From positions 56,662 to 120,661 of the forward strand of contig NZ_KB893750.1 of assembly GCF_000374165.1 (NCBI RefSeq): 64,000 bases of DNA, in the 5' to 3' direction. The translations under genes and the position numbers were made by a program. Source of the stretch: Parafrankia elaeagni (GTDB taxonomy: Bacteria; Actinomycetota; Actinomycetes; Frankiales; Frankiaceae). The notes below the pieces were generated by a model, which saw nothing but the letters and a program-made list of their open reading frames with translations, was not told where the DNA came from and searched no databases. This document shows, piece after piece, positions 2,370 through 60,598 of the stretch. Each line of letters opens with the position of its first letter. The first letter of the stretch is position 1.

Positions 2370-2837
2370 CCTCACCCTGCGGGCAGGTGCTCTGGCCTCG
2401 TGGCCGGTGGCTCGCGGTGGCACGGCTTCCGCCGCGAGCCCGGCCGCCCCTGGCCAGGGACCCCTGCCCGATCGGTACCAGTCCGGGCAGGACCAACCTG
2501 GGCAGGACCAGCGCGGGCACCCAGTGGGAAACGTGAATGCGCAGAAACCGGCAGCCTTCTTCCTGGCGGGGCCGCATGGTAATTCGGGCGTTCTGCGGAG
2601 TGCTGGTCGAGGTGTTCCCGGCTTCGGGTACGACTGTGAGGTGCCTGGATCGTCCGGGAAGAGTTCCCGTGGTGGTCCCGGCGCGCCGGGACCCAACAGA
2701 AATCCGCTCCCGGACAACGCTTCTTCACTTCCGCGCGGCAGGCCGATAGGGGCTTCCTCGGCCGGTATCATGTTTCCATGAACGTGGTGGTGGCCGGCGA
2801 GGTCGGTCACCACCAGTCCTCATCGTGGAGGTTTCGC
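2370..2837. other. Intergenic region with terminator and short repeats
   Basis: Between the P450 and the microprotein. It holds a hairpin at 2409-2440, followed by loose copies of a GGGCAGGACCA-type repeat near 2487-2515 in otherwise unremarkable GC-rich DNA. The end of the stretch is the leader of the small gene at 2838. Confidence 0.4.
2409..2440 (+). terminator. Probable terminator after the P450 gene
   Basis: A 9-bp perfect stem (GGCTCGCGG/CCGCGAGCC) with a 14-nt loop about 40 nt past the P450 stop. There is no T-run, which is common for actinobacterial terminators. Confidence 0.45.
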
Positions 2838-2918
2838 ATGAAGCGTGCCGGGCTTGTTGTCATGTTCTTCGCTCTCGTTGGCGGTGGTTTCCTCGTGCGG
2901 CGCCAGCGCGGCCAGTAG
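2838..2918 (+). CDS. 26-residue single-pass membrane microprotein
   Basis: A very short open frame with an excellent ribosome site: GGAGG at 2827-2831, six nt before the ATG. The peptide starts MKRAGLVVMFFALVGGGFLV and ends with a basic tail (RRQRGQ). Layout is two basic residues, about 17 hydrophobic residues with a GGG stretch, then a positively charged end, typical of bacterial membrane microproteins. An in-frame ATG at 2778 would give 46 residues, but it lacks a ribosome site and its extra sequence is hydrophilic. The gene ends 86 nt before the PLP decarboxylase and could share its transcript. I do not recognise a family; function unknown. Confidence 0.55.
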   Translation: MKRAGLVVMFFALVGGGFLVRRQRGQ

Positions 2919-3004
2919 AGACCTTGTGGGCGGTGGTCGCCGCCTGCGAAGGCACCCGTTGATCGCCTCGGCGGTGGGGCCGGGGTCGACCTAGACTTCG
3001 GCGG

Positions 3005-4444
3005 GTGCACCGACCCGACGCTGCGATCTTCGATGTACTCGGCCCCGGCCTTGAAGAGGCGGTTGTCGACTACGCACGGGCGAGGATGAATCTCGATCCC
3101 GCCCCGCTGGACGGAACGGCCGCACCGGCCGAACTCGCGCGACAGGCGGGGCGCACGATCACTCCGGAAGGCGTCGGTGGGCTCGCGGCCCTGCGCGTCT
3201 TCGACGAGGTCCTGTCCCGGGCGTGCATATCGGCCGATCACCCGCGCAATCTGGCCTTCATCCCGGCTGCGCCGACACGGGCGTCGATTCTGTTCGACCT
3301 CGTCGTCGGTGCCTCGTCGATCTACGGCGGGAGCTGGCTCGAGGGCAGCGGTGCCATCCACGCCGAGAACGAGGCGCTGCGCTGGCTGTCCGATCTGGTC
3401 GGCTTCCCGCCCAGCGCCGGTGGCGCGTTCGTGCAGGGCGGCACGGTCGGGAACCTCTCGGCGCTGGTCGCGGCGCGGCACGCGGCGCGTGCCCGCCGGG
3501 TGGCCCTTGGGCTGCCGCTGCCGGCCCGCTGGTGCTTCCTGTGTGGGGCCGAGGCCCACTCGTCGCTGCGGCAGGCCGCCGAGGTGATGGACGTCGATCT
3601 CGTCTTCGTCTCCGCCGACGGCAGCGGGCGGCTGACCGGGGCCGCTGTGGCCGCCGCGCTGGACGCCCACAGCCTGGACCCGGTCGAGCGCGGTGCCACC
3701 GGCCGGAACGCACCGGGTACCGGAGTGTTCGCGGTCGTCGCGACGGCGGGGAGCACCCAGTTCGGGATCGTCGATGACATCGGCGGGATCGTCGACGCCG
3801 CGCACGCCCGGGACATCTGGGTGCATGTCGACGGCGCCTACGGTCTTGCCGGTATCGCCGCGCCGTCCGTTCGTCACCTCTTCGCCGGGGTCGGTGCTGC
3901 CGACTCCTTCATCGTCGATCCCCACAAGTGGCTGTTCGCACCCTTCGACGCCTGCGCGCTGGTCTACCGCGATCCCGCGGCGGCCCGGCTGGCGCACGCC
4001 CAGCAGGCGGGCTACCTGGAAGTCCTCGATCGGGACAGCGCCTGGAACCCGTCCGACTACCAGATCGGGCTGTCCCGGCGGGTGCGCGGCCTGCCGTTCT
4101 GGTTCTCCCTCGCGACCTATGGGACGCAGGCCTACGGACGGGCGGTGGAGCGCTGCCTCGCGACCGCCCGCGCCGCGGCGGACCTCGTGCGGGAGCTGCC
4201 CTACGTGGAGCTGGTCCGCGAGCCGGAGCTGTCGATCGTCGTCCTGCGCCGGCTCGGGTGGTCGCCGCCGGACTACCACCGGTGGTCCGACTGCCTGCTG
4301 CGCGGCGGGCTGGCCTTCGTCACCCCGACCGTGCACAACGGCGAGACGGTGACCCGCTTCGCCATCGTGAACCCGCGGACGACCTCCGACGACGTCGGGC
4401 GCATCCTCGCCACCATGGCGGACGACGCCCTCCCCACCTGCTGA
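3005..4444 (+). CDS. Group II PLP-dependent amino acid decarboxylase family protein
   Basis: A 479-residue PLP enzyme of the group II decarboxylase family (aromatic-amino-acid, glutamate and related decarboxylases). The cofactor lysine is K308 in the motif DPHKWLF, and D276 in HVDGAYG is the residue expected to pair with the pyridine nitrogen. The glycine-rich GGTVGNLSAL segment around 145 matches the phosphate-binding region. The substrate cannot be assigned; the spacing resembles aromatic-L-amino-acid or tyrosine decarboxylases more than classical glutamate decarboxylases, which is a family-level guess. The start is a GTG; the upstream 80 nt carry the preceding microprotein. A hairpin terminator follows at 4522. 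Confidence 0.88.
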   Translation: MHRPDAAIFDVLGPGLEEAVVDYARARMNLDPAPLDGTAAPAELARQAGRTITPEGVGGLAALRVFDEVLSRACISADHPRNLAFIPAAPTRASILFDLVVGASSIYGGSWLEGSGAIHAENEALRWLSDLVGFPPSAGGAFVQGGTVGNLSALVAARHAARARRVALGLPLPARWCFLCGAEAHSSLRQAAEVMDVDLVFVSADGSGRLTGAAVAAALDAHSLDPVERGATGRNAPGTGVFAVVATAGSTQFGIVDDIGGIVDAAHARDIWVHVDGAYGLAGIAAPSVRHLFAGVGAADSFIVDPHKWLFAPFDACALVYRDPAAARLAHAQQAGYLEVLDRDSAWNPSDYQIGLSRRVRGLPFWFSLATYGTQAYGRAVERCLATARAAADLVRELPYVELVREPELSIVVLRRLGWSPPDYHRWSDCLLRGGLAFVTPTVHNGETVTRFAIVNPRTTSDDVGRILATMADDALPTC

Positions 4445-4521
4445 CGGCGCTGCCCCCACCCGCTGACGGCGCCGTCGGCGGACGTGCCGCGGGCCGGTCT
4501 CTCCGGGCCGGAAAGCCGGAT

Positions 4522-4556
4522 GGCCGGGCCCGGACTGCGTACGTCCGGGCCCGGCC
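4522..4556. terminator. Bidirectional terminator between convergent genes
   Basis: A 13-bp perfect stem (GGCCGGGCCCGGA and its complement) with a 9-nt loop, followed on the plus strand by TTTC. It lies between the plus-strand decarboxylase and the minus-strand gene ending at 4713. Confidence 0.7.
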
Positions 4557-4712
4557 TTTCCCTGCTTCTGAACACGATCGGGGCTGACCGGGATCAGACC
4601 GGTCACCTCACGGGATCAGCGAACAGTCGGACCGCAGGGAATCAGCAAACGACTGACAGGCGGCTGTGGCGGCTGTGGCCGCTGCTGGCCGCGTCGCGCC
4701 GAAGAACGGGGC

Positions 4713-5357
4713 TCAGTACCCCACCGTGTAGCGCTTGTTGCGGAACTTCGGCTTCTCCGCCTCGTCCAGGACGGCGATGGCGAAATCCTCGTGCGAGATT
4801 CCCATGTTTCCCTGGGAGTCCATCACCGGGCGGTCGCCGGCGGTGCGGTAGGCCTCCCGGCGGCGCCCCGGGCCGAAGTTGCGCGGCGGCGGGGTGATGT
4901 ACGACCACTTCACGCTGCCCTTGGCGGCGCGGAGCACATCAAGCGCGTCAGCCTGGTCCAGGGCCTCCTTGCGCTCGCCCGCGGGGAACTCCTGCGTGTC
5001 GACGATCCGCTCGCCGTCGGTGTTCTCCAGCAGCCCGCCGTTTCCGACGTGGATGACCGCGGGAGCCTTGTTCCCGAGCTTGCTCGCGACGTCGACCATC
5101 ACGCGGGCGACGTTCGCGTGCTCGGGGCGGGCGCACCCGGCCAGCGCGACCACGACCACGTCGGCGCCCTGCGCCTGCTGGGCGACGACGTCGCGGGACG
5201 TGACATCCCCGGTCATCGGGTTGGCCTGCCGGGGAAGCGACTTCATCTGGTTCTGGTCCTGGTCGACCGCCGTGACCTCGTGACCGCGCTTGACGGCCTC
5301 GGCGACGATGGACCGACCTACCTGACCACCGGCACCGAGAACAACGATCCTTGCCAT
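4713..5357 (-). CDS. NAD(P)-binding oxidoreductase of the atypical SDR / NmrA-like type
   Basis: A 214-residue protein with an N-terminal Rossmann fingerprint GAGGQVG at 8-14 after a hydrophobic first strand (IVVLG), typical of atypical short-chain dehydrogenases such as NAD(P)H-binding and NmrA-like proteins. The central HVGNGGLLEN segment and the later YITPPPRNFGPG segment occupy the substrate-facing half. Typical members are quinone or NADPH sensors, or isomerase-like enzymes; which applies here is unknown. It stands alone, convergent with the decarboxylase. The region upstream carries only a decayed AraC-type fragment, possibly the remains of a neighbouring regulator. Confidence 0.8.
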   Translation of the reverse strand: MARIVVLGAGGQVGRSIVAEAVKRGHEVTAVDQDQNQMKSLPRQANPMTGDVTSRDVVAQQAQGADVVVVALAGCARPEHANVARVMVDVASKLGNKAPAVIHVGNGGLLENTDGERIVDTQEFPAGERKEALDQADALDVLRAAKGSVKWSYITPPPRNFGPGRRREAYRTAGDRPVMDSQGNMGISHEDFAIAVLDEAEKPKFRNKRYTVGY

Positions 5358-5592
5358 TACTGACCTCCGGATTGCGTTGACTGAGCCACCATGGAAATCG
5401 ATCCGCTGGATCTGGCTTTGACCGCGGCATGGTCACGGTCTTTCACCTTGCGCATCGACTATGACACGCTCCGGAGTCGGCGCAACCTGAGTCCGTCTAC
5501 GATCGAAGCGGAGATCCGGAACAAAGATCGGTGCGCCGGCACCCGGGATCAGAATCAACCGGCGTTCCGCGCGCTGCCGGCGCCGCGGTGGC

Positions 5593-5814
5593 GTGAAAAT
5601 GGCGTGGGGTGGGGTGCATGGCGCCGAATTATTCCTTGCAGGTCGGTCGACCTTCGGCCAGGTCGCCCGGCACACGGGCTTCGCGACCGGGATCTCGCTG
5701 CGTCAGCGCTTCCGAGCCGCGACGGGTGTCTCACCAACCGCCTATCGGCAGACCTTCCGCGATTGCGGCGGTGCGACTCTCAACGGCCCAGCCCCGAAAA
5801 GCACGAAGCCCTGA
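5593..5814 (+). pseudogene. Remnant of an AraC/GlxA-family transcriptional regulator (C-terminal helix-turn-helix)
   Basis: Only the second helix-turn-helix of an AraC-type DNA-binding domain survives: from about 5647 the frame reads STFGQVARHTGF, then LRQRFRAATGVSPTAYRQTF, the classic end of GlxA-like regulators. The sensor domain and first HTH are missing, and the DNA before 5640 does not encode them in any frame. The open frame starts at a GTG without a convincing ribosome site. The fragment overlaps the tRNA terminator at its 3' end. I read it as a truncated relic, not a working gene. Confidence 0.65.
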
Positions 5815-5838
5815 ACCCGAGATCGTGGGTTCAGGGCT
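5807..5838 (-). terminator. Rho-independent terminator of the tRNA-Ser gene
   Basis: A 12-bp perfect stem (AGCCCTGAACCC/GGGTTCAGGGCT) with an 8-nt loop, 30 nt beyond the tRNA 3' end on the minus strand, followed by a moderately T-rich run (TTCGTGCTTTTC). Confidence 0.75.
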
Positions 5839-5867
5839 ATGCCGATGTCCCAAGACATCACACACGG

Positions 5868-5954
5868 CGGTGGAGGTGGGATTTGAACCCACGGAGGGGT
5901 TGCCCCCTCACACGCTTTCGAGGCGTGCGCCCTCGGCCACTAGGCGACTCCACC
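5868..5954 (-). tRNA. tRNA-Ser (anticodon CGA)
   Basis: On the minus strand the acceptor arms GGTGGAG and CTCCACC pair perfectly, with a G discriminator. The T-arm GGGTTCAAATCCC is intact, the anticodon loop is CTCGAAA (anticodon CGA, reading UCG), and there is a long variable arm typical of class II serine tRNAs. The CCA end is not encoded. It lies 85 nt downstream of tadA on the same strand and may be cotranscribed. Confidence 0.95.
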
Positions 5955-6039
5955 GCAGGCTAGCTTACGCGACGCCGTCCGGGTCCGGCCGACCGGGGGG
6001 TCGGTGTCCGTTTCGCGCCTGGCCGTTCGCGCCTGGCCG

Positions 6040-6546
6040 TCAGAGATCCGGGCCCGGTCCCGGGCTGTCGGATGTCCGCGCGGAGTGCGCGGAGCGCCGG
6101 GCGACGAAGAAGGCAGCCAGGTGCTCCGAGCACTCCTGTGCGCGAACGCCGGAGATCACCTCGGGACGGTGGTTCAGGCGCCGGTCGCGGACGACATCCC
6201 ACAGCGAGCCCACGGCGCCGGCCTTGTCGTCGACGGCGCCGTACACAAGCCGGCCGACACGGGCGAGTACCAACGCCCCCGCGCACATCGTGCACGGCTC
6301 CAAAGTGACCACCAGCGTCGTCCCGTCGAGCCGCCAGGCCCCCAGCTCGCGCGCCGCGGCCCGGAGCGCGACCACCTCCGCGTGGGCGGTCGGATCCCCG
6401 CCGGCCTCCCGGGCGTTGTGCCCGCGCCCCAGGACGCGGCCGTCGGGCGCCACGACGACCGCCCCCACCGGCACGTCACCGGCCGCCTCGGCCAGCGCGG
6501 CCTCGGCGAGGGCGAGGCCCATGGCGTCGTGGTACCGATCAGCCAC
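6040..6546 (-). CDS. tadA: tRNA-specific adenosine deaminase
   Basis: Converts adenosine 34 to inosine in tRNA-Arg(ACG), allowing one tRNA to read several CGN codons. The zinc-dependent deaminase signatures are complete: HAE at 55-57 (zinc ligand plus proton-shuttle Glu) and PCTMC at 84-88 with the two zinc cysteines. The N-terminal DVPVGAVVV and HNARE segments are those of TadA, and 168 residues is normal length. It overlaps the upstream gene by 8 nt, so the two are translationally coupled. A serine tRNA follows on the same strand. Confidence 0.95.
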   Translation of the reverse strand: MADRYHDAMGLALAEAALAEAAGDVPVGAVVVAPDGRVLGRGHNAREAGGDPTAHAEVVALRAAARELGAWRLDGTTLVVTLEPCTMCAGALVLARVGRLVYGAVDDKAGAVGSLWDVVRDRRLNHRPEVISGVRAQECSEHLAAFFVARRSAHSARTSDSPGPGPDL

Positions 6547-51180: not shown

Positions 51181-51663
51181 ATGGATGCGAAGCTGTTCTA
51201 CCGGATGGACGGCACCTTCGACCGGATCGAGATGATCGGCGCGGTGCCGGGCGGGGTGCGGATGAACGGCTACTTCGGCGGACGGCTGTCGGGCGGGCCG
51301 CTGGACGGAGCCACGATGACCGGCGTGGACCACTTCCGGGTGCGTCCCGACGGCGTGGGCGTGGTCGACGGCCACGAGCTGGTGCGGCTCGGCACCGCCC
51401 AGGTCGCCGTGCGGATCACCGGCTACGCTCTCCCGCCGGAGGGGATGGCGGTCCCGCCCGCGGAGGTGCTCACAGCGGACGGGTTCACCTGGCCGGACGT
51501 GCCGTTCGCGCTCGAGGTCTTCGCGACGTTCGAGACGGGCGTCCCGGCGTTGGCCGACCTGAACCGGGTTGCGGTCGCCCACACCGGATTCGTCAACATG
51601 GGCACCGGTGAGCTGGTCGTGCGGGCCCACCGCCTCGGCCGGGTCGCCGTTCCGGCACGCTAG
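51181..51663 (+). CDS. DUF3237-like protein
   Basis: 160 residues, beta-rich, with LFYRMDGTFDRIEMIGAVPGG at the start, GVDHFRVRPDG mid-way and LADLNRVAVAHTGFVNMGTGEL at the end, resembling DUF3237-type barrels of unknown enzymology. GAGGAGG lies 5 nt before the ATG. Its stop overlaps, on the other strand, the stop of the large LuxR-type regulator by 4 nt, so the two genes are immediately convergent with no terminator space. Function unknown. Confidence 0.75.
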   Translation: MDAKLFYRMDGTFDRIEMIGAVPGGVRMNGYFGGRLSGGPLDGATMTGVDHFRVRPDGVGVVDGHELVRLGTAQVAVRITGYALPPEGMAVPPAEVLTADGFTWPDVPFALEVFATFETGVPALADLNRVAVAHTGFVNMGTGELVVRAHRLGRVAVPAR

Positions 51664-54575
51664 GGCCCGATGCCCCGGCCGCCCGGGTACCGGGCGCGCA
51701 GCCCTGCGCGGTTGGGCTCGCCGGTCTTGGCCAGCAGGCTCGCTACGTGCTTCTCGACCGTCTTGGCGGACACGACGAGGCGCTCGGCGATCTGCCGGTT
51801 GGTCAGGCCGGAGGCGAGCAGGCGCAGAACGTCGACCTCGCGGCTGGTGACGCCGAGCGCGCGTAGGGAGTCCGGCACCGGGGACACGCCCCGTCCGCTG
51901 CGGGGGACCACGGCGCCGGACTCCCGCAGCAGACGCCGAGCCGACGTGGCGAGCGGCTCGTGCCCGTGGTCGGCGAACCAGCGGACGGCGGCCTGCAGCC
52001 AGCCGACCGGGTCACCCCAGCCGTCCGCGGCCGCGGACGGCGCCAGCAGCCATCCGAAGAGATGGACGAACCACTGCGCGCCCTGGTAGCCGCGGACATC
52101 GGTCACGGCGGCGTCCCGGTGTGCCGCCGCGGCCGCCGCGTCGCCGGCCCGGCCGGCGACGACCGCCTCGGCGGCCCGTAGCGCCGCGCGGTTGAACCGG
52201 GTGTCCGAGCCAGCCGCGGCGGCCGCCGCGGCGCGCTCGTCCGCGCCGCGGTCCGCGCCGCCGCGCTCGCCGTCGTGGCCGTCCTCGCCGAGGGTGCACA
52301 GCAGCGCCCACAGGCCGCGGTGCGGGTCGTGCTCACCGGGGCAGGCGCGCAGCAGTACCGCCGAGCGGTCGAGGGCGGCGCGCGCGCCGGCGGCGTCCGC
52401 GCTGTGCAGGGCGAGCATCGCGTACACGTGGCTGTGCACCGCCGCCTCGACCGCCGGATCGTCGGGAGCGGCCTCGGTGATGCGGGCGACGACGGCCGCG
52501 ACCTGGGCCTGGTCGCGTTCGTGCGCGTAGGAGCGGGCCAGGATGGTGAGCGCCGGCGGTAGCACGGCCAGGCGCAGGCGGCTGGCGAGATCCACCGCAC
52601 GCAGGGCCGCGGCGCGGCCGTCCGCGAGGTTGTTGCGCGCGATCAGCGCCGAGGCGAGGTGGAAGTCGGCGACCGCGGCCAGCGCCGGGGAACCGGCCTC
52701 GATCGCCGCGCGCCGGGCGGTGGCCAGCCGGTCGGTCGACATCCGGTCGAGCAGGTCGATGGTGCCGAGTTCGTGCAGGGCCCGGGCGCGCCACAGACTG
52801 AGCTGGTGGCGCTCGGCCACGTCCAGCGCGGAGGTGAACAGCTTCTCCGCGGCGGTGACGTCGTGGATCCGCCGGGCGCGGCCGAGAACCTCCAGCGCCT
52901 CGCACCGCACCTCCGGAACGTCGTCGCCGATCAGGTCGAGCACCTCGCCGGCGAGTCGCTCGGCGTCCGCGACCGATCCCCGGCTCACCGCGATCTGCGC
53001 GGCGAGTACCACCGCCCGCGCCCGCCGGACGGTGTCGGCCGCGGAGCCCGCCGCCGACGCCGCGGCCTCCGCGTGCCGCTCGGCACGCGGGTAGGCGCCG
53101 GCGGTCAGCGCGGCCCTGCCCAGCAGAAGCTCCAGGTCGGCGAGACGACGGGGGCTGTCGCCGCGGGCGCGGCGGGTGGCGAGCGCGGGTTCGGCCAGGG
53201 CGGTCGCCGCCTCGACGTCGCCGGCCAGGGCGTGCACCTCGGCGAGCCGTTCGGCGACCTCCACAGCCGCGTCCGGCCCGGCCAGTCGCGCCGCGTGCTC
53301 CAGTCGCGCGGCGGCGGTGGCCAGGGCCCCGTGGTCGCGGGCCCTGGCCGCGGCGGCCAGCAGACTGTCCGTCGCCCGGGCGGTGTCCCCTGCCATGAGC
53401 GCGAGCTCGGCGGCCCGGTCGGGGTCGGAGGTCACCGCGGCGGCGAGGGCTCGCCCGGCGAGGGCCGCCCGTTCCGGCGGCAGCATCTGGTCCAGGATGT
53501 ACTGGCGGGTCAGCGCGTGCCGGAACCGCAGCGTGCCGCCGTCGCCGGTGAGCAGCTGCGCGGCGGTCGCGGCCCGCAGTGCGTCGAGGACCTGCTCGGG
53601 CGGTGTGCCGCTGACCCGCGTCAGTGCGTCCCAGTCGATGTCGCGGCCGAGCAGGGCCGTGGCGCGCAGCACCCGGCTCTGCTCGTCGGACAGCTCGGCC
53701 ATCCGGCCGGCGATGGACGCGGCGAAGCTCGTCGGGAGCACGACCGGCAGCGGCCCATGAGACCGATGAGGCCCCTGCGGGGTCCGGTCGCCTGCCCGCG
53801 GATCGAGCAGATCGGCGCCGGCGAGCCCGGCGAGGAGTTCCTCCACGAGGAACGGGACGCCGTCGGCATGCTCGTGGACGAACGCCAGCAGCTCGCCGGG
53901 GACGGCGTCGCGGTCCAGGTACGCCAGCGTCAGGCGTTCGACGTCGGCGGGTGGGAGCGGGCCGACCGGCAGGAGTTCGATGGCTCGCCGGTCGGCGAGC
54001 CGTCGCACCGCCCGCGCGGCCCCGGGCGGCCCCGGGCGCACCGTGAACACGCAGGCCGCCTGGTGGGTGCCGGTGTTGTCCGCGAGGTACTCCAGCACCT
54101 CCAGCGTGTCGCGATCGGCCCAGTGCAGGTCCTCGACGACGAGGAGCGTGCCGCGCCCGCGACCGGCGATCTGCATGAGCCGCAGCAGCGCCTCGGCGAT
54201 CGCGAGTGTCGAGGTGTGCGGAGCGAGCCGGGTCGACCAGTGCGGCACGAGGTGCGCCAGCGTCGGCAGCAGCGCGGTGACCGCCGGCTCCGAGGGGGGT
54301 GGCTGGCCGCGGAAGCCTCCGTGCAACGCCTCGGACAGGGGACGGAACGGCGCCGTGGACGTGCCGCCGGCAGCGCGCCCGCACAGCACGAGCAGGCCGC
54401 GGTCACGGGCGCGGTCCACGGCATGGCCGGCCAGCCGGGACTTGCCGATGCCGGCCTCCCCGACCAGCGCCAGCGCGCCGCCGCGGCCCTGCCCGGCCTC
54501 GTCGACGGCGCGGTCGAGCCGCGCGACCTCCGCGACCCGGCCCACCAGCCGCGGGCCTGGGCGCTGCGTGCTCAT
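51660..54575 (-). CDS. LAL-type (LuxR family) ATP-binding transcriptional regulator
   Basis: A 971-residue regulator. N-terminal AAA/STAND ATPase: Walker A GEAGIGKS (39-46), LLVVEDLHWADRDTLEVLEYL (Walker B) and the sensor region to about 400. A long helical, TPR-like middle (about 400-890) is rich in Ala/Leu repeats. C-terminal LuxR helix-turn-helix: TSREVDVLRLLASGLTNRQI then SAKTVEKHVASLLAKTGEPNRAGL (about 905-965). LAL regulators are signal-responsive activators, often of secondary metabolism or uptake genes. Nearby candidates for control are the divergent mycothiol isomerase-like gene and those after it; this is inference. Confidence 0.92.
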   Translation of the reverse strand: MSTQRPGPRLVGRVAEVARLDRAVDEAGQGRGGALALVGEAGIGKSRLAGHAVDRARDRGLLVLCGRAAGGTSTAPFRPLSEALHGGFRGQPPPSEPAVTALLPTLAHLVPHWSTRLAPHTSTLAIAEALLRLMQIAGRGRGTLLVVEDLHWADRDTLEVLEYLADNTGTHQAACVFTVRPGPPGAARAVRRLADRRAIELLPVGPLPPADVERLTLAYLDRDAVPGELLAFVHEHADGVPFLVEELLAGLAGADLLDPRAGDRTPQGPHRSHGPLPVVLPTSFAASIAGRMAELSDEQSRVLRATALLGRDIDWDALTRVSGTPPEQVLDALRAATAAQLLTGDGGTLRFRHALTRQYILDQMLPPERAALAGRALAAAVTSDPDRAAELALMAGDTARATDSLLAAAARARDHGALATAAARLEHAARLAGPDAAVEVAERLAEVHALAGDVEAATALAEPALATRRARGDSPRRLADLELLLGRAALTAGAYPRAERHAEAAASAAGSAADTVRRARAVVLAAQIAVSRGSVADAERLAGEVLDLIGDDVPEVRCEALEVLGRARRIHDVTAAEKLFTSALDVAERHQLSLWRARALHELGTIDLLDRMSTDRLATARRAAIEAGSPALAAVADFHLASALIARNNLADGRAAALRAVDLASRLRLAVLPPALTILARSYAHERDQAQVAAVVARITEAAPDDPAVEAAVHSHVYAMLALHSADAAGARAALDRSAVLLRACPGEHDPHRGLWALLCTLGEDGHDGERGGADRGADERAAAAAAAGSDTRFNRAALRAAEAVVAGRAGDAAAAAAHRDAAVTDVRGYQGAQWFVHLFGWLLAPSAAADGWGDPVGWLQAAVRWFADHGHEPLATSARRLLRESGAVVPRSGRGVSPVPDSLRALGVTSREVDVLRLLASGLTNRQIAERLVVSAKTVEKHVASLLAKTGEPNRAGLRARYPGGRGIGP

Positions 54576-57350: not shown

Positions 57351-59705
57351 TCAGCGGATGGTGCTGTCGGGGACGTAGGTGATGTCCCAGAGACGGGCGG
57401 TCATGTCGGTGCTCGTCGTCGCGAGCAGCAGGCCGTAGGGGGCGAACGCGCACGCCATCACCGTGCTGGTGTGGCCGGTCAGCGTCGCCACCGCGGTGCC
57501 CGTGGCGACATCCCACAGCCGGGCGGTGTCGTCGGTGCTCGCGGTCGCCAGCACCAGCCCGTCGGGGGAGAACGCGCAGCTCTGCGCGGAGCCCGGCAGG
57601 GTCAGCGTCGCCGTCCCGGTCGGAACGTCGGTCAGCCGGGTGCCGTCGTTGCTGGTCGTGGCCAGCAACAGGCCGTCGGGCGAGAACGAGCAGCCGTTCG
57701 CGAAGTTGGTGTGGCCGTCGAGGTCACGGATCTTCTCGCCGCGTGCCGCGTCCCACAGCAGGGTCTGGTCGGCGCCGGCGGTGACAAGCAGGTGGCCGTC
57801 GGGGGAGAACGCGCAGCCGTAGACAGCGCCGCGGTGGCCGGCGAGTGTCGCGAGGCAGGAACCGGTCGACACCCCCCACAACCGGACGGTGCGATCGGTG
57901 CTGACGGTGGCCAGCATGGTCCCGTCGGGGGAGAACGCGCAGCCGTAGACGGGGCCCTTGTGGCCGGTGAGGTTCAGCACCGCCCGTTCGGTCGCGATCT
58001 CCCAGACCCGTGCGGTCTTGTCGGCGCCGGTCGTGGCGAGCAGCCGCCCGTCGGGGGAGAACGCGCAGCCGTGCAGGCCGGCGATCCGCCGCCCGGCCAA
58101 CCGGCCGGCGGCGCGGCCGGTGGCGACGTCCCACAGCCGGGCCCCGTCCCGGCTGGTGGTGGCCAGCAGGGTGCCGTCGGGGGAGAAGGCCGCGCAGGTG
58201 ACGTCCCGCTCGTGGCCGCTCAGCGTGCTCCGCGCCGTCACCTCGACGTTGCGGGACGGGCGGCTGGTGCGCTCGAAGCCGCGCAGGTCGGCCGGCAGGG
58301 CGGTGCCGCCGGCCGGGGCCGGGCCGGAGGGCAGCGTGGTGGCCAGCCAGTCGACGTCCCGCACGGGCGCGCCCGGCTCGGCATGGGTCTCGACGAGGCT
58401 GCCGGGGGCCTCCGCGGCCAGGTCGAACAGGGCGCCGTCGCGGAGCCGGACCCGGGCGAGCACCGACCCGGCGTCGAAACGCGCGCCGGGCTCGACGAGC
58501 CAGCGCACCATGGTCGCCCGCCCACCCGGAATGTCCCAGCGGGCTGGCTGCACCACCGGATTGGGCCGGGCGGCGACGATCCGCCGCGTCGACACCGTCG
58601 CCGCCCAGGAGGCCGCGCCGAGTACGACGGCCTGGTCCGGATCGGGCAGGGCGAACACGTGCTGCGCAGGCCAGTCGGTGCCCACCCCCAGCCGCCCGGC
58701 GAGAATCTCGGTGACGACCGGCATCCGGGACGCGCCGCCGACGGGCAGCGCCCCGGCGAGCTGCTCCGGCGTGATCCCGGTGGTCTCCAGCAGGTGCTGG
58801 CAGCAGGCCATCGTCCGGGCCAGGGTGGGCGAGGCCAGTTTGGTGAACCGGTCCCGGTCCAGGCTGACGAGCAGCCCGGCGGGGCTGAACACGTCCTCGA
58901 CGAAAGCGACGTCGGTGAGCTGGTGTTTCACCGCGCGGGCGAAGTCGAGCAGCTCGTGGCGGGTGCGGCTGGCGGCGGTCTGGAACACCTCTCCGACACC
59001 GGACGGGTTGAGCAGCGGCTCCAGCCCGGGACCGTAGTGGCCGAGGATCTCGTCGTAGAGGAGCTGGTCGAAATCCCGCCCGCCGCAGTCGTGCAGCGCG
59101 CTGTGACCGAGCAGCTCGTGCCGCCCGCCCTCCCCGAACATGACCAGGGACGCCTCGAAGGTGCCGCCGCCGAGGTCGTAGACCAGCACGAGATCACCCG
59201 GCCGGGGGCTGGCGGGTCCGGGCGGCGCCCAGGCGGCCGCGACCGGCTCGGCGAGCAGATCGACGTCGACGAACCCGGCCTCCTCGGCGGCGTTGATCAT
59301 CGTGTGGCGCAGGGGCCCGGCCGGGTCATAGCTCGCCGGGACGGTGACCACGGCCCGGCGCAGCGCCACCCCGTCCAACTGGGCCTCGGCCTCGGTGCGC
59401 AGCGCCGTGAGGACCGCGGTCACCAGCCCGGCAGGGGGGTGGCTGCGGCCGTCCAGCACGATGCCGGTGCTGCGGGTCAGCGCCCGCTTCACCCCGCCGT
59501 GGTAGGCAGCCGGCCAGATGCGTTTGCGGCGCTCGGCGAGGGTGCCGACGAGCAGCTGGTCACCGTCCGCGAGAACCGAGGAGGGCCAGGCCACGGCACC
59601 GCTCGCCGGCTCCCGGACCAGCGCGACCTGACCGTCGACGACCAGTGCCGCGGATGCCTGGTAGGTGCCGTAGTCGATCGCGAGGATCGGCTCCCCCACC
59701 GGCAC
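57351..59705 (-). CDS. Hsp70-type ATPase fused to a hammerhead-like domain and a seven-repeat WD40 propeller
   Basis: 784 residues. N-terminal actin-like Hsp70 ATPase (about 1-380): DYGTYQASAAL (phosphate 1, canonical DLGTT altered to DYGTY), VVTVPASYDPAGP, LAEPVAAAW, VYDLGGGTFEASLV (phosphate 2) and PVGGASRMPVV (adenosine). Next (about 387-455) MVRWLVEPGARFDAGSVL...VETHAEPGAPV resembles a biotinyl/lipoyl hammerhead without the modifiable lysine. Then seven WD40 repeats (about 494-784) with recurrent CAFSPDGLLLATTS and ARLWDVATG. The normal Hsp70 peptide-binding domain is absent; the propeller likely replaces it as the partner-binding part. It is downstream of tandem 16-bp repeats and 69 nt upstream of mscL. 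Confidence 0.88.
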   Translation of the reverse strand: MPVGEPILAIDYGTYQASAALVVDGQVALVREPASGAVAWPSSVLADGDQLLVGTLAERRKRIWPAAYHGGVKRALTRSTGIVLDGRSHPPAGLVTAVLTALRTEAEAQLDGVALRRAVVTVPASYDPAGPLRHTMINAAEEAGFVDVDLLAEPVAAAWAPPGPASPRPGDLVLVYDLGGGTFEASLVMFGEGGRHELLGHSALHDCGGRDFDQLLYDEILGHYGPGLEPLLNPSGVGEVFQTAASRTRHELLDFARAVKHQLTDVAFVEDVFSPAGLLVSLDRDRFTKLASPTLARTMACCQHLLETTGITPEQLAGALPVGGASRMPVVTEILAGRLGVGTDWPAQHVFALPDPDQAVVLGAASWAATVSTRRIVAARPNPVVQPARWDIPGGRATMVRWLVEPGARFDAGSVLARVRLRDGALFDLAAEAPGSLVETHAEPGAPVRDVDWLATTLPSGPAPAGGTALPADLRGFERTSRPSRNVEVTARSTLSGHERDVTCAAFSPDGTLLATTSRDGARLWDVATGRAAGRLAGRRIAGLHGCAFSPDGRLLATTGADKTARVWEIATERAVLNLTGHKGPVYGCAFSPDGTMLATVSTDRTVRLWGVSTGSCLATLAGHRGAVYGCAFSPDGHLLVTAGADQTLLWDAARGEKIRDLDGHTNFANGCSFSPDGLLLATTSNDGTRLTDVPTGTATLTLPGSAQSCAFSPDGLVLATASTDDTARLWDVATGTAVATLTGHTSTVMACAFAPYGLLLATTSTDMTARLWDITYVPDSTIR

Positions 59706-60044: not shown

Positions 60045-60350
60045 ATGCGCATCGCCATCCCGCGACGAGCGGATCCGCAGCACGCCGTCACGCCTCCGGG
60101 CCCCGGGCCAGACCCCGTCCCGCCGGGTCCAGGGCCGGATCCGGTGCCTCCGGGCCCTGGTCCGGACCCGGTGCCGCCGGGTCCAGGGCCGGATCCGGTG
60201 CCTCCGGGCCCTGGTCCGGACCCGATACCCCCGAGTCCGCTGCCGGACCCGGTTCCCCCGCCGCCCGGCCCCGATCTGCTTCCCGGCGTCGCCGGCGCGG
60301 CGCCCGCGGCGGTTCCGGGTAGTCGGGTTACGGGTAGCTGTCTGACATGA
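60045..60350 (+). CDS. Proline-rich repeat protein (PPGPGPDPV repeats)
   Basis: 101 residues: a short basic start (MRIAIPRRADPQHAV), then five near-exact copies of the nonapeptide PPGPGPDPV and two degenerate ones (PPSPLPDPV, PPPPGPDLL), then a hydrophobic end. The DNA alternates two 27-bp codings, giving a 54-bp higher-order repeat. Such Pro/Gly/Asp repeats adopt extended, polyproline-like structure. GGAGG lies 8 nt before the ATG. It overlaps the DUF6158-like gene by 4 nt (ATGA), so both are translated together. No signal peptide; function unknown. Expansion makes repeat number likely to vary between strains. Confidence 0.6.
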   Translation: MRIAIPRRADPQHAVTPPGPGPDPVPPGPGPDPVPPGPGPDPVPPGPGPDPVPPGPGPDPIPPSPLPDPVPPPPGPDLLPGVAGAAPAAVPGSRVTGSCLT

Positions 60351-60598
60351 GCCATCGCCCCGAGGGAATCCCCGCCCCTGAACTGTCCGATGCCGACCTT
60401 GTGCGGGAGGTACGCCATCTGCACCTGACCAGGCATGACACCTTCCTCACCGGGAGCGAGGACGCATTCGAGACGCACACCCAGCGCATGCTCGAACTCG
60501 AGCGCGAGTACCTGCGCCGCTTCCCGGACTCGGCCAGCCCCGACCCGCGCCGGACCAGGGCCGGCCGCCGCCGCGCGGCCGGCGTTCTGCCCGGCTGA
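60347..60598 (+). CDS. DUF6158-like small protein
   Basis: 83 residues, charged and helical: GIPAPELSDADLVREVRHLH, then LTRHDTFLTGSEDAFETHTQRMLELEREYLRRFP (two adjacent segments), matching small actinobacterial proteins grouped as DUF6158. The many His and Glu residues could bind metal, but no motif is established. The start overlaps the previous stop by 4 nt. It ends before a strong terminator. Function unknown. Confidence 0.75.
   Translation: MSHRPEGIPAPELSDADLVREVRHLHLTRHDTFLTGSEDAFETHTQRMLELEREYLRRFPDSASPDPRRTRAGRRRAAGVLPG

Follow-up and report, generated by a model that had tools for sequence, protein, structure and literature searches.

What does an Hsp70-type protein do once its substrate-binding half has been exchanged for other domains? 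This question is raised by a gene of Parafrankia elaeagni (host genome 7.6 Mb) that lies in the stretch of 64,000 nucleotides analysed here, which we call the window and whose positions we use throughout. Hsp70 allostery is usually studied in a nucleotide-binding domain (NBD) and a substrate-binding domain together; the natural protein described here keeps the NBD alone of that pair, and an unmodifiable lipoyl-like domain stands in place of the Hsp70 linker and substrate domain. If the NBD still signals its nucleotide state, the protein would reveal what portions of the Hsp70 switch are transferable to a different domain. The gene is carried by all genomes sampled from three genera.

Gene and domain order

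The gene is one unbroken, GTG-started frame on the minus strand, with its stop codon at 57351-57353 and 784 codons counted from the first GTG. The second GTG, at 59699 and six bases in, is the likelier start (782 amino acids), because it is present in 27/27 copies, the first GTG is missing in one Parafrankia copy (L024), and a GGAGG is better spaced for the second. Here and below, the 27 copies are the window's own gene and 26 orthologs; the copy of genome G034 is left out. The features are as follows.

57351-59705, minus strand: whole gene (Hsp70 NBD, lipoyl-like domain, WD40), 784 aa from the first GTG or 782 aa from the GTG at 59699
58584-59699, minus strand: Hsp70-type NBD, residues 3-374; PF00012, with DnaK NBDs nearest among solved structures
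58323-58574, minus strand: lysine-less biotinyl/lipoyl-like (barrel-sandwich) domain, residues 378-461; hairpin Arg-Asp-Gly-Ala at the lipoyl lysine site
58236-58322, minus strand: variable-length linker, residues 462-490, with indels between orthologs
57375-58235, minus strand: seven-bladed WD40 propeller, residues 491-777
60347-60598, plus strand: DUF6158 gene, 83 aa, a divergent neighbour (PF19655, E=2.5e-28 in the window copy)

The earlier note on this DNA had allowed for the frame being split into two genes. This is not so: all 27 copies are single frames read through to the C-terminal stop, and in the two flagged copies that were checked by position, L026 and L027, the "stop inside" proved to be the terminal stop. 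For G034, the source of the 28th copy, the match came in two pieces; in L095, which seems to be from the same genome, the copy is a single frame of 801 residues. L095 was left out of A2 and of the neighbourhood comparison, and L088 out of A3 (pattern mismatch). An antisense ORF of 798 aa was taken as a high-GC shadow because the minus-strand frame has a GC3 of 0.94 and a dN/dS of 0.06-0.40 over its three domains in seven ortholog pairs. In the window copy hydropathy over 19 residues peaks at 1.37, and there is no membrane segment.

A lipoyl-like domain without its lysine

The region that follows the NBD, about 84 residues (378-461), has the biotinyl/lipoyl, or barrel-sandwich hybrid, fold: a profile search, a profile-profile comparison, an AlphaFold model and a fold search agree. 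Direct sequence scores are low. PF00364 gives 14.5 bits, below its cut-off of 22.1 (E=0.03-0.07), the own-genome Pfam search with the lipoyl profile gives E=0.5, and matches to PDB sequences are weak (E=0.06-1) and mixed with unrelated chains. A reverse profile search of 198 genomes returned 24 non-self rows, and seven of the eight best were scanned with Pfam, the fourth (a 27-residue match) being left out. Five of these seven are PF00364 domains, four of them in E2 acyltransferases; a sugar transporter and an Ig-like protein make up the rest. By eye, another five rows did not look lipoyl-like, and 12 of the 24 were left aside. After this search, hhalign against 10 of the 11 own-genome lipoyl domains over the cut-off and the fold search agreed on a lipoyl-like identity, and a chance resemblance to lipoyl domains was set aside. 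The BLASTP partner, L144, was chosen by eye as the most similar.

At the position of the hairpin lysine, all 27 copies, the window's included, have Asp-Gly; in three of them the domain does contain a lysine, at another site. The proposal that a lysine-less, biotinyl/lipoyl-resembling hammerhead replaces the substrate-binding half of Hsp70 therefore holds. An ordinary Hsp70 substrate-binding domain, the alternative for residues ~380-460, is ruled out by the end of the Pfam match, by the lipoyl-like fold of the region and by the missing linker.

The sequence of this domain is nonetheless the most constrained part of a gene that is under purifying selection. Its dN/dS (0.06-0.15) is the lowest of the three domains in 7/7 ortholog pairs, which share sequences and are not independent; in the same pairs, the NBD ranges over 0.14-0.38 and the WD40 region over 0.17-0.40. 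The linker at residues 462-490, which carries indels between orthologs, has the highest value of the four segments in three of the seven pairs. Since the lysine is lost in 27/27 copies and yet dN/dS is lowest in 7/7 pairs, the lipoyl-like domain appears to be needed, though not as a carrier.

A closed and conserved propeller

Pfam finds seven WD40 stretches, and the full-length AlphaFold model, which is confident only for the propeller and was used for no other part, closes them into seven blades, as the earlier note had counted. The blades are individually conserved across genera rather than variable, and this fits with a fixed partner.

What the nucleotide-binding domain keeps and what it has lost

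The Hsp70 nucleotide-binding half recognised earlier is clearly present, and it places the protein in the Hsp70 superfamily: PF00012 matches the NBD with 114.6 bits (E=5e-33) against a curated cut-off of 20.6. This match ends at profile position 374 of 599; the Pfam HSP70 match, residues 86-372, corresponds to profile positions 105-376 of 599 and likewise covers the NBD only. The best solved relatives of a profile of 14 copies (residues 3-479) are DnaK NBDs (E=4e-39), and the alignment gives 28% identity between the NBD and one DnaK of the same genome. In 20 aligned copies the following do not vary: the D, G and T residues of DxGT in the first phosphate loop, the glutamate of LLAEP (found in 27/27 copies), DxGGGT of the second phosphate loop, GGR and VGG.

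Other features of DnaK are gone. The first phosphate loop is DYGTY in the window copy instead of DLGTT, as had been pointed out, and DxGT[C/F/Y/S] in 27/27 copies; the residue after DxGT is C in 12, F in 8, Y in 5 and S in 2, and is never the Thr of DnaK, which 18 of 30 other NBDs in the same alignment have. At the position of the J-domain-contacting arginine, which we take to be R167 of DnaK, all 27 copies have Asp and both own-genome DnaKs have Arg. A VLLLD-like hydrophobic interdomain linker follows the NBD in 0/27 copies; it is present in three of the four DnaK-type proteins tried, including both own-genome DnaKs. In DnaK, the P-loop threonine, the J-domain arginine and the linker all matter for coupling.

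None of these losses is diagnostic alone, because Asp at the arginine position also occurs in the Hsp70-like proteins L014, L017 and L118 of the same alignment (in L014 and L017, PF00012 matches again further on, with its C-terminal half), because the threonine is found in just 18/30 NBDs, and because the DnaK-like L101 is without the linker pattern. The same caution applies to the lysine of DnaK that we presume to be catalytic, a position at which copies of the gene have A, G, T, V or P. Its loss was considered as proof of a dead ATPase and rejected: L101, a DnaK-like protein from another genome, has Thr there, so the substitution by itself is no sign of inactivity. In the full-length AlphaFold model the NBD is poor, mostly below 50, and active-site geometry and domain arrangement are not readable from it.

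In a tree of NBDs, built without L012 and L115, the gene groups with NBD-only proteins of genomes G011 and G018 (support, 0.94), a grouping on which we do not rely because of the long branches. These partners, L112 and L117, are Hsp70-NBD-only proteins of 374 and 358 aa.

Distribution and neighbourhood

The domain-architecture search across actinobacteria proposed earlier was run on a sample of the class, and the architecture was found in three genera of one family. Full-length matches occur in 28 of 394 sampled genomes (in one, G034, in two pieces), namely in 7/7, 13/13 and 8/8 sampled genomes of three genera. These genera, named here alphabetically, are Frankia, Parafrankia and Pseudofrankia, and they are known for nitrogen-fixing plant symbionts. 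There were no carriers among the eight sampled genomes of the family's four other genera (one of these genomes is only 63% complete) or among the 358 remaining genomes of the class sample. Two class scans, one scoring at most 4 and the other at most 13 of the top first-look candidates in each genome, agreed on these 28; another 16 weak rows, which are not orthologs, came out of the class search. Among the carriers is G014, a one-contig genome of 5.4 Mb. In a scan of named genomes, 20/20 matches were to Frankia, Parafrankia or Pseudofrankia, a scan that reaches close relatives only because its query was two short peptide patterns. The closest named ortholog is that of Parafrankia colletiae (96-97% identical).

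A DUF6158-like ORF lies upstream, in divergent orientation and 0.8 to 5.6 kb off, in 15/20 loci, a nearness kept across the three genera; the other five loci hold merely 641-2340 bases upstream, too little to tell. Being transcribed the other way, DUF6158 shares no operon with the gene. It is the sole neighbour that we saw conserved, an operon common to the three genera was not seen, and our literature search found no paper under the name DUF6158. Downstream of the gene in the window is MscL. The window also encodes, at 51660-54575 on the minus strand, a 971-aa regulator with AAA_16 and LuxR (GerE) domains.

Proposed function and alternatives

Given an Hsp70 ATP-binding half joined to a lysine-less lipoyl-like domain and a seven-bladed propeller, the gene product is probably a nucleotide-controlled docking platform rather than a folding chaperone. 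The reading that we favour, with a probability of about 0.5, is that of a soluble cytoplasmic regulator derived from Hsp70, not a folding chaperone, whose nucleotide state gates the binding of a partner. We infer its steps from the domains. The actin-like NBD would bind ATP or ADP; the lysine-less lipoyl-like domain, at the site of the Hsp70 linker and beta-sandwich, could serve as a rigid relay or for docking; and the WD40 propeller would hold one or more specific protein partners. The nucleotide state, or a slow hydrolysis independent of J-proteins, might then rearrange NBD, relay and propeller and thereby gate partner binding. Against this reading weigh the lack of an operon partner among the neighbours seen, the divergent orientation of DUF6158, and the occurrence of some of the same losses in other Hsp70-like proteins. 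A sharper version is more tentative: Frankia and its relatives would have made an Hsp70 into a non-chaperone nucleotide sensor by exchanging its peptide-binding half, so that the dead lipoyl domain became the allosteric relay and the fixed propeller signals to one dedicated partner, which would make the protein a new class of Hsp70-derived signalling proteins.

Among the alternatives, the one that survives best, unlikely though we hold it to be, is a constitutive scaffold, in which the NBD would be a pseudo-ATPase deaf to nucleotide and partners would be held by the propeller and the lipoyl-like domain. The absence of the second P-loop threonine from 27/27 copies, the missing J-domain arginine and linker, and the A/G/T/V/P at the presumed catalytic lysine are what such a protein could look like. 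However, the phosphate-2 loop and VGG are invariant in the 20 aligned copies, the Glu of LLAEP is kept in all 27, and the NBD evolves at a dN/dS of 0.14-0.38; the Thr of L101 takes weight from the lysine argument.

The earlier note had proposed an ATP-driven switch. As an unorthodox chaperone, the protein would bind unfolded or specific clients with its propeller and release them through hydrolysis by the NBD. The NBD is homologous to that of Hsp70, WD40 propellers often bind peptides, and the J-domain arginine is also missing from some Hsp70-like proteins in which a C-terminal half is present. Such a switch is possible but less likely, because features that couple the ATP cycle of DnaK are missing: linker, J-domain arginine and second P-loop threonine are absent from all 27 copies. 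The neighbouring ORFs of the window that were scanned, a subset of the ORFs, include no gene for DnaJ or GrpE either. We regard a chaperone as improbable and an ATP-driven switch with propeller-bound clients as less certain than had been proposed, and would favour a nucleotide-sensing scaffold.

A part in a multi-gene biological-conflict (immunity-like) system, for example a GTPase-centric one with HSP70-only proteins, seems very improbable. Kaur et al. 2020 (PMC7159879) report that some GAP1-N2 neighbourhoods include a second gene whose product is an HSP70 domain alone, lacking the peptide-binding domain, but the same subset of neighbouring window ORFs holds no GTPase, tubulin, vWA or MoxR gene, the gene is in 28/28 sampled genomes of the three genera, and its blades are not variable.

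Comparison with known systems

The combination of an NBD, a dead lipoyl domain and a WD40 propeller was not met elsewhere in the genomes, plasmids and literature searched. The literature search for this architecture found no recognisable description. Thirteen genomes were searched with PF00012, and of 28 Hsp70-type frames read from 10 of them, a part of the frames listed, none matched the blade profile of the gene, a profile that finds the gene in 3/3 copies and WD40 frames in 2/2 other loci. No plasmid record covers 80% of the query made of the NBD and the lipoyl-like domain; of the 100 matching plasmid records three were examined, two with a gene annotated as Hsp70 family under a name without WD40 and one without an annotated gene under the match. 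Among the 15 plasmid rows listed of these 100, the lowest E-value (4e-32) belongs to L162, on plasmid pANA01 of Anabaena sp. 90, where the gene for a 409-aa protein annotated as Hsp70 family lies in a row that also includes one for a CHAT-domain protein.

DnaK and other members of the Hsp70 family (PF00012) share with the gene the NBD and its phosphate-2 and adenosine motifs. In contrast to them, it has no substrate-binding domain, no VLLLD linker and no second P-loop threonine, and has Asp at the J-domain arginine; with PF00012 stopping at 374-376 of 599 and the two other domains following, the architecture is indeed unlike DnaK, as had been suggested. The biotinyl/lipoyl domains (PF00364) of E2 enzymes and biotin carriers have the hairpin lysine that is missing here, where the Pfam score is below the cut-off. 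The propeller compares with that of Thermomonospora PkwA (5yzv) and with the repetitive propeller 2ymu; here, however, it is joined to an Hsp70 NBD and a lipoyl-like domain, whereas PkwA is a kinase fusion.

Other Hsp70-NBD fusions of actinobacteria follow the same plan, an NBD and then another module. In the host genome and its relatives, Hsp70 NBDs are followed by periplasmic-binding-protein-like domains, by Vgb/YNCE or PQQ propellers, or by nothing. The partner is PBP_like_2 in L009, L012 and L105 and a beta-propeller in two cases, Vgb/YNCE in L069 and PQQ in L108. Unlike the gene studied here, four of these five are predicted to cross the membrane ahead of the C-terminal module; for L108 the same scan predicts no such segment. 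None of the five matched the blade profile of the gene, and a lipoyl-like match at E up to 0.01 was found in their genomes only for the gene's orthologs.

Several of these loci deserve a record of their own. In the genome of the window, L009 (178-2859, minus strand) encodes an Hsp70 NBD, a predicted membrane segment and PBP_like_2, and so does L012 (1396-3939, minus strand; G000:C81), about 67 kb past the right edge of the window; with L105, from another genome, they may be receptors in the membrane whose Hsp70 NBD lies in the cytosol. L108 (513-3026, minus strand; genome G011) joins the NBD to a PQQ-type propeller. L069 (1934-4393, minus strand), from G042 of another family, has an NBD and a Vgb/YNCE propeller and adjoins an ORF that looks by eye like a dynamin-type GTPase. 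In another actinobacterial family, L068 holds two adjacent Hsp70-NBD proteins (2531-4840 and 4438-6414, minus strand), in which visual inspection suggests a linker rich in proline and a segment resembling a membrane span. The theme of an Hsp70 NBD with another module, sometimes a propeller, is already seen in the host and its relatives.
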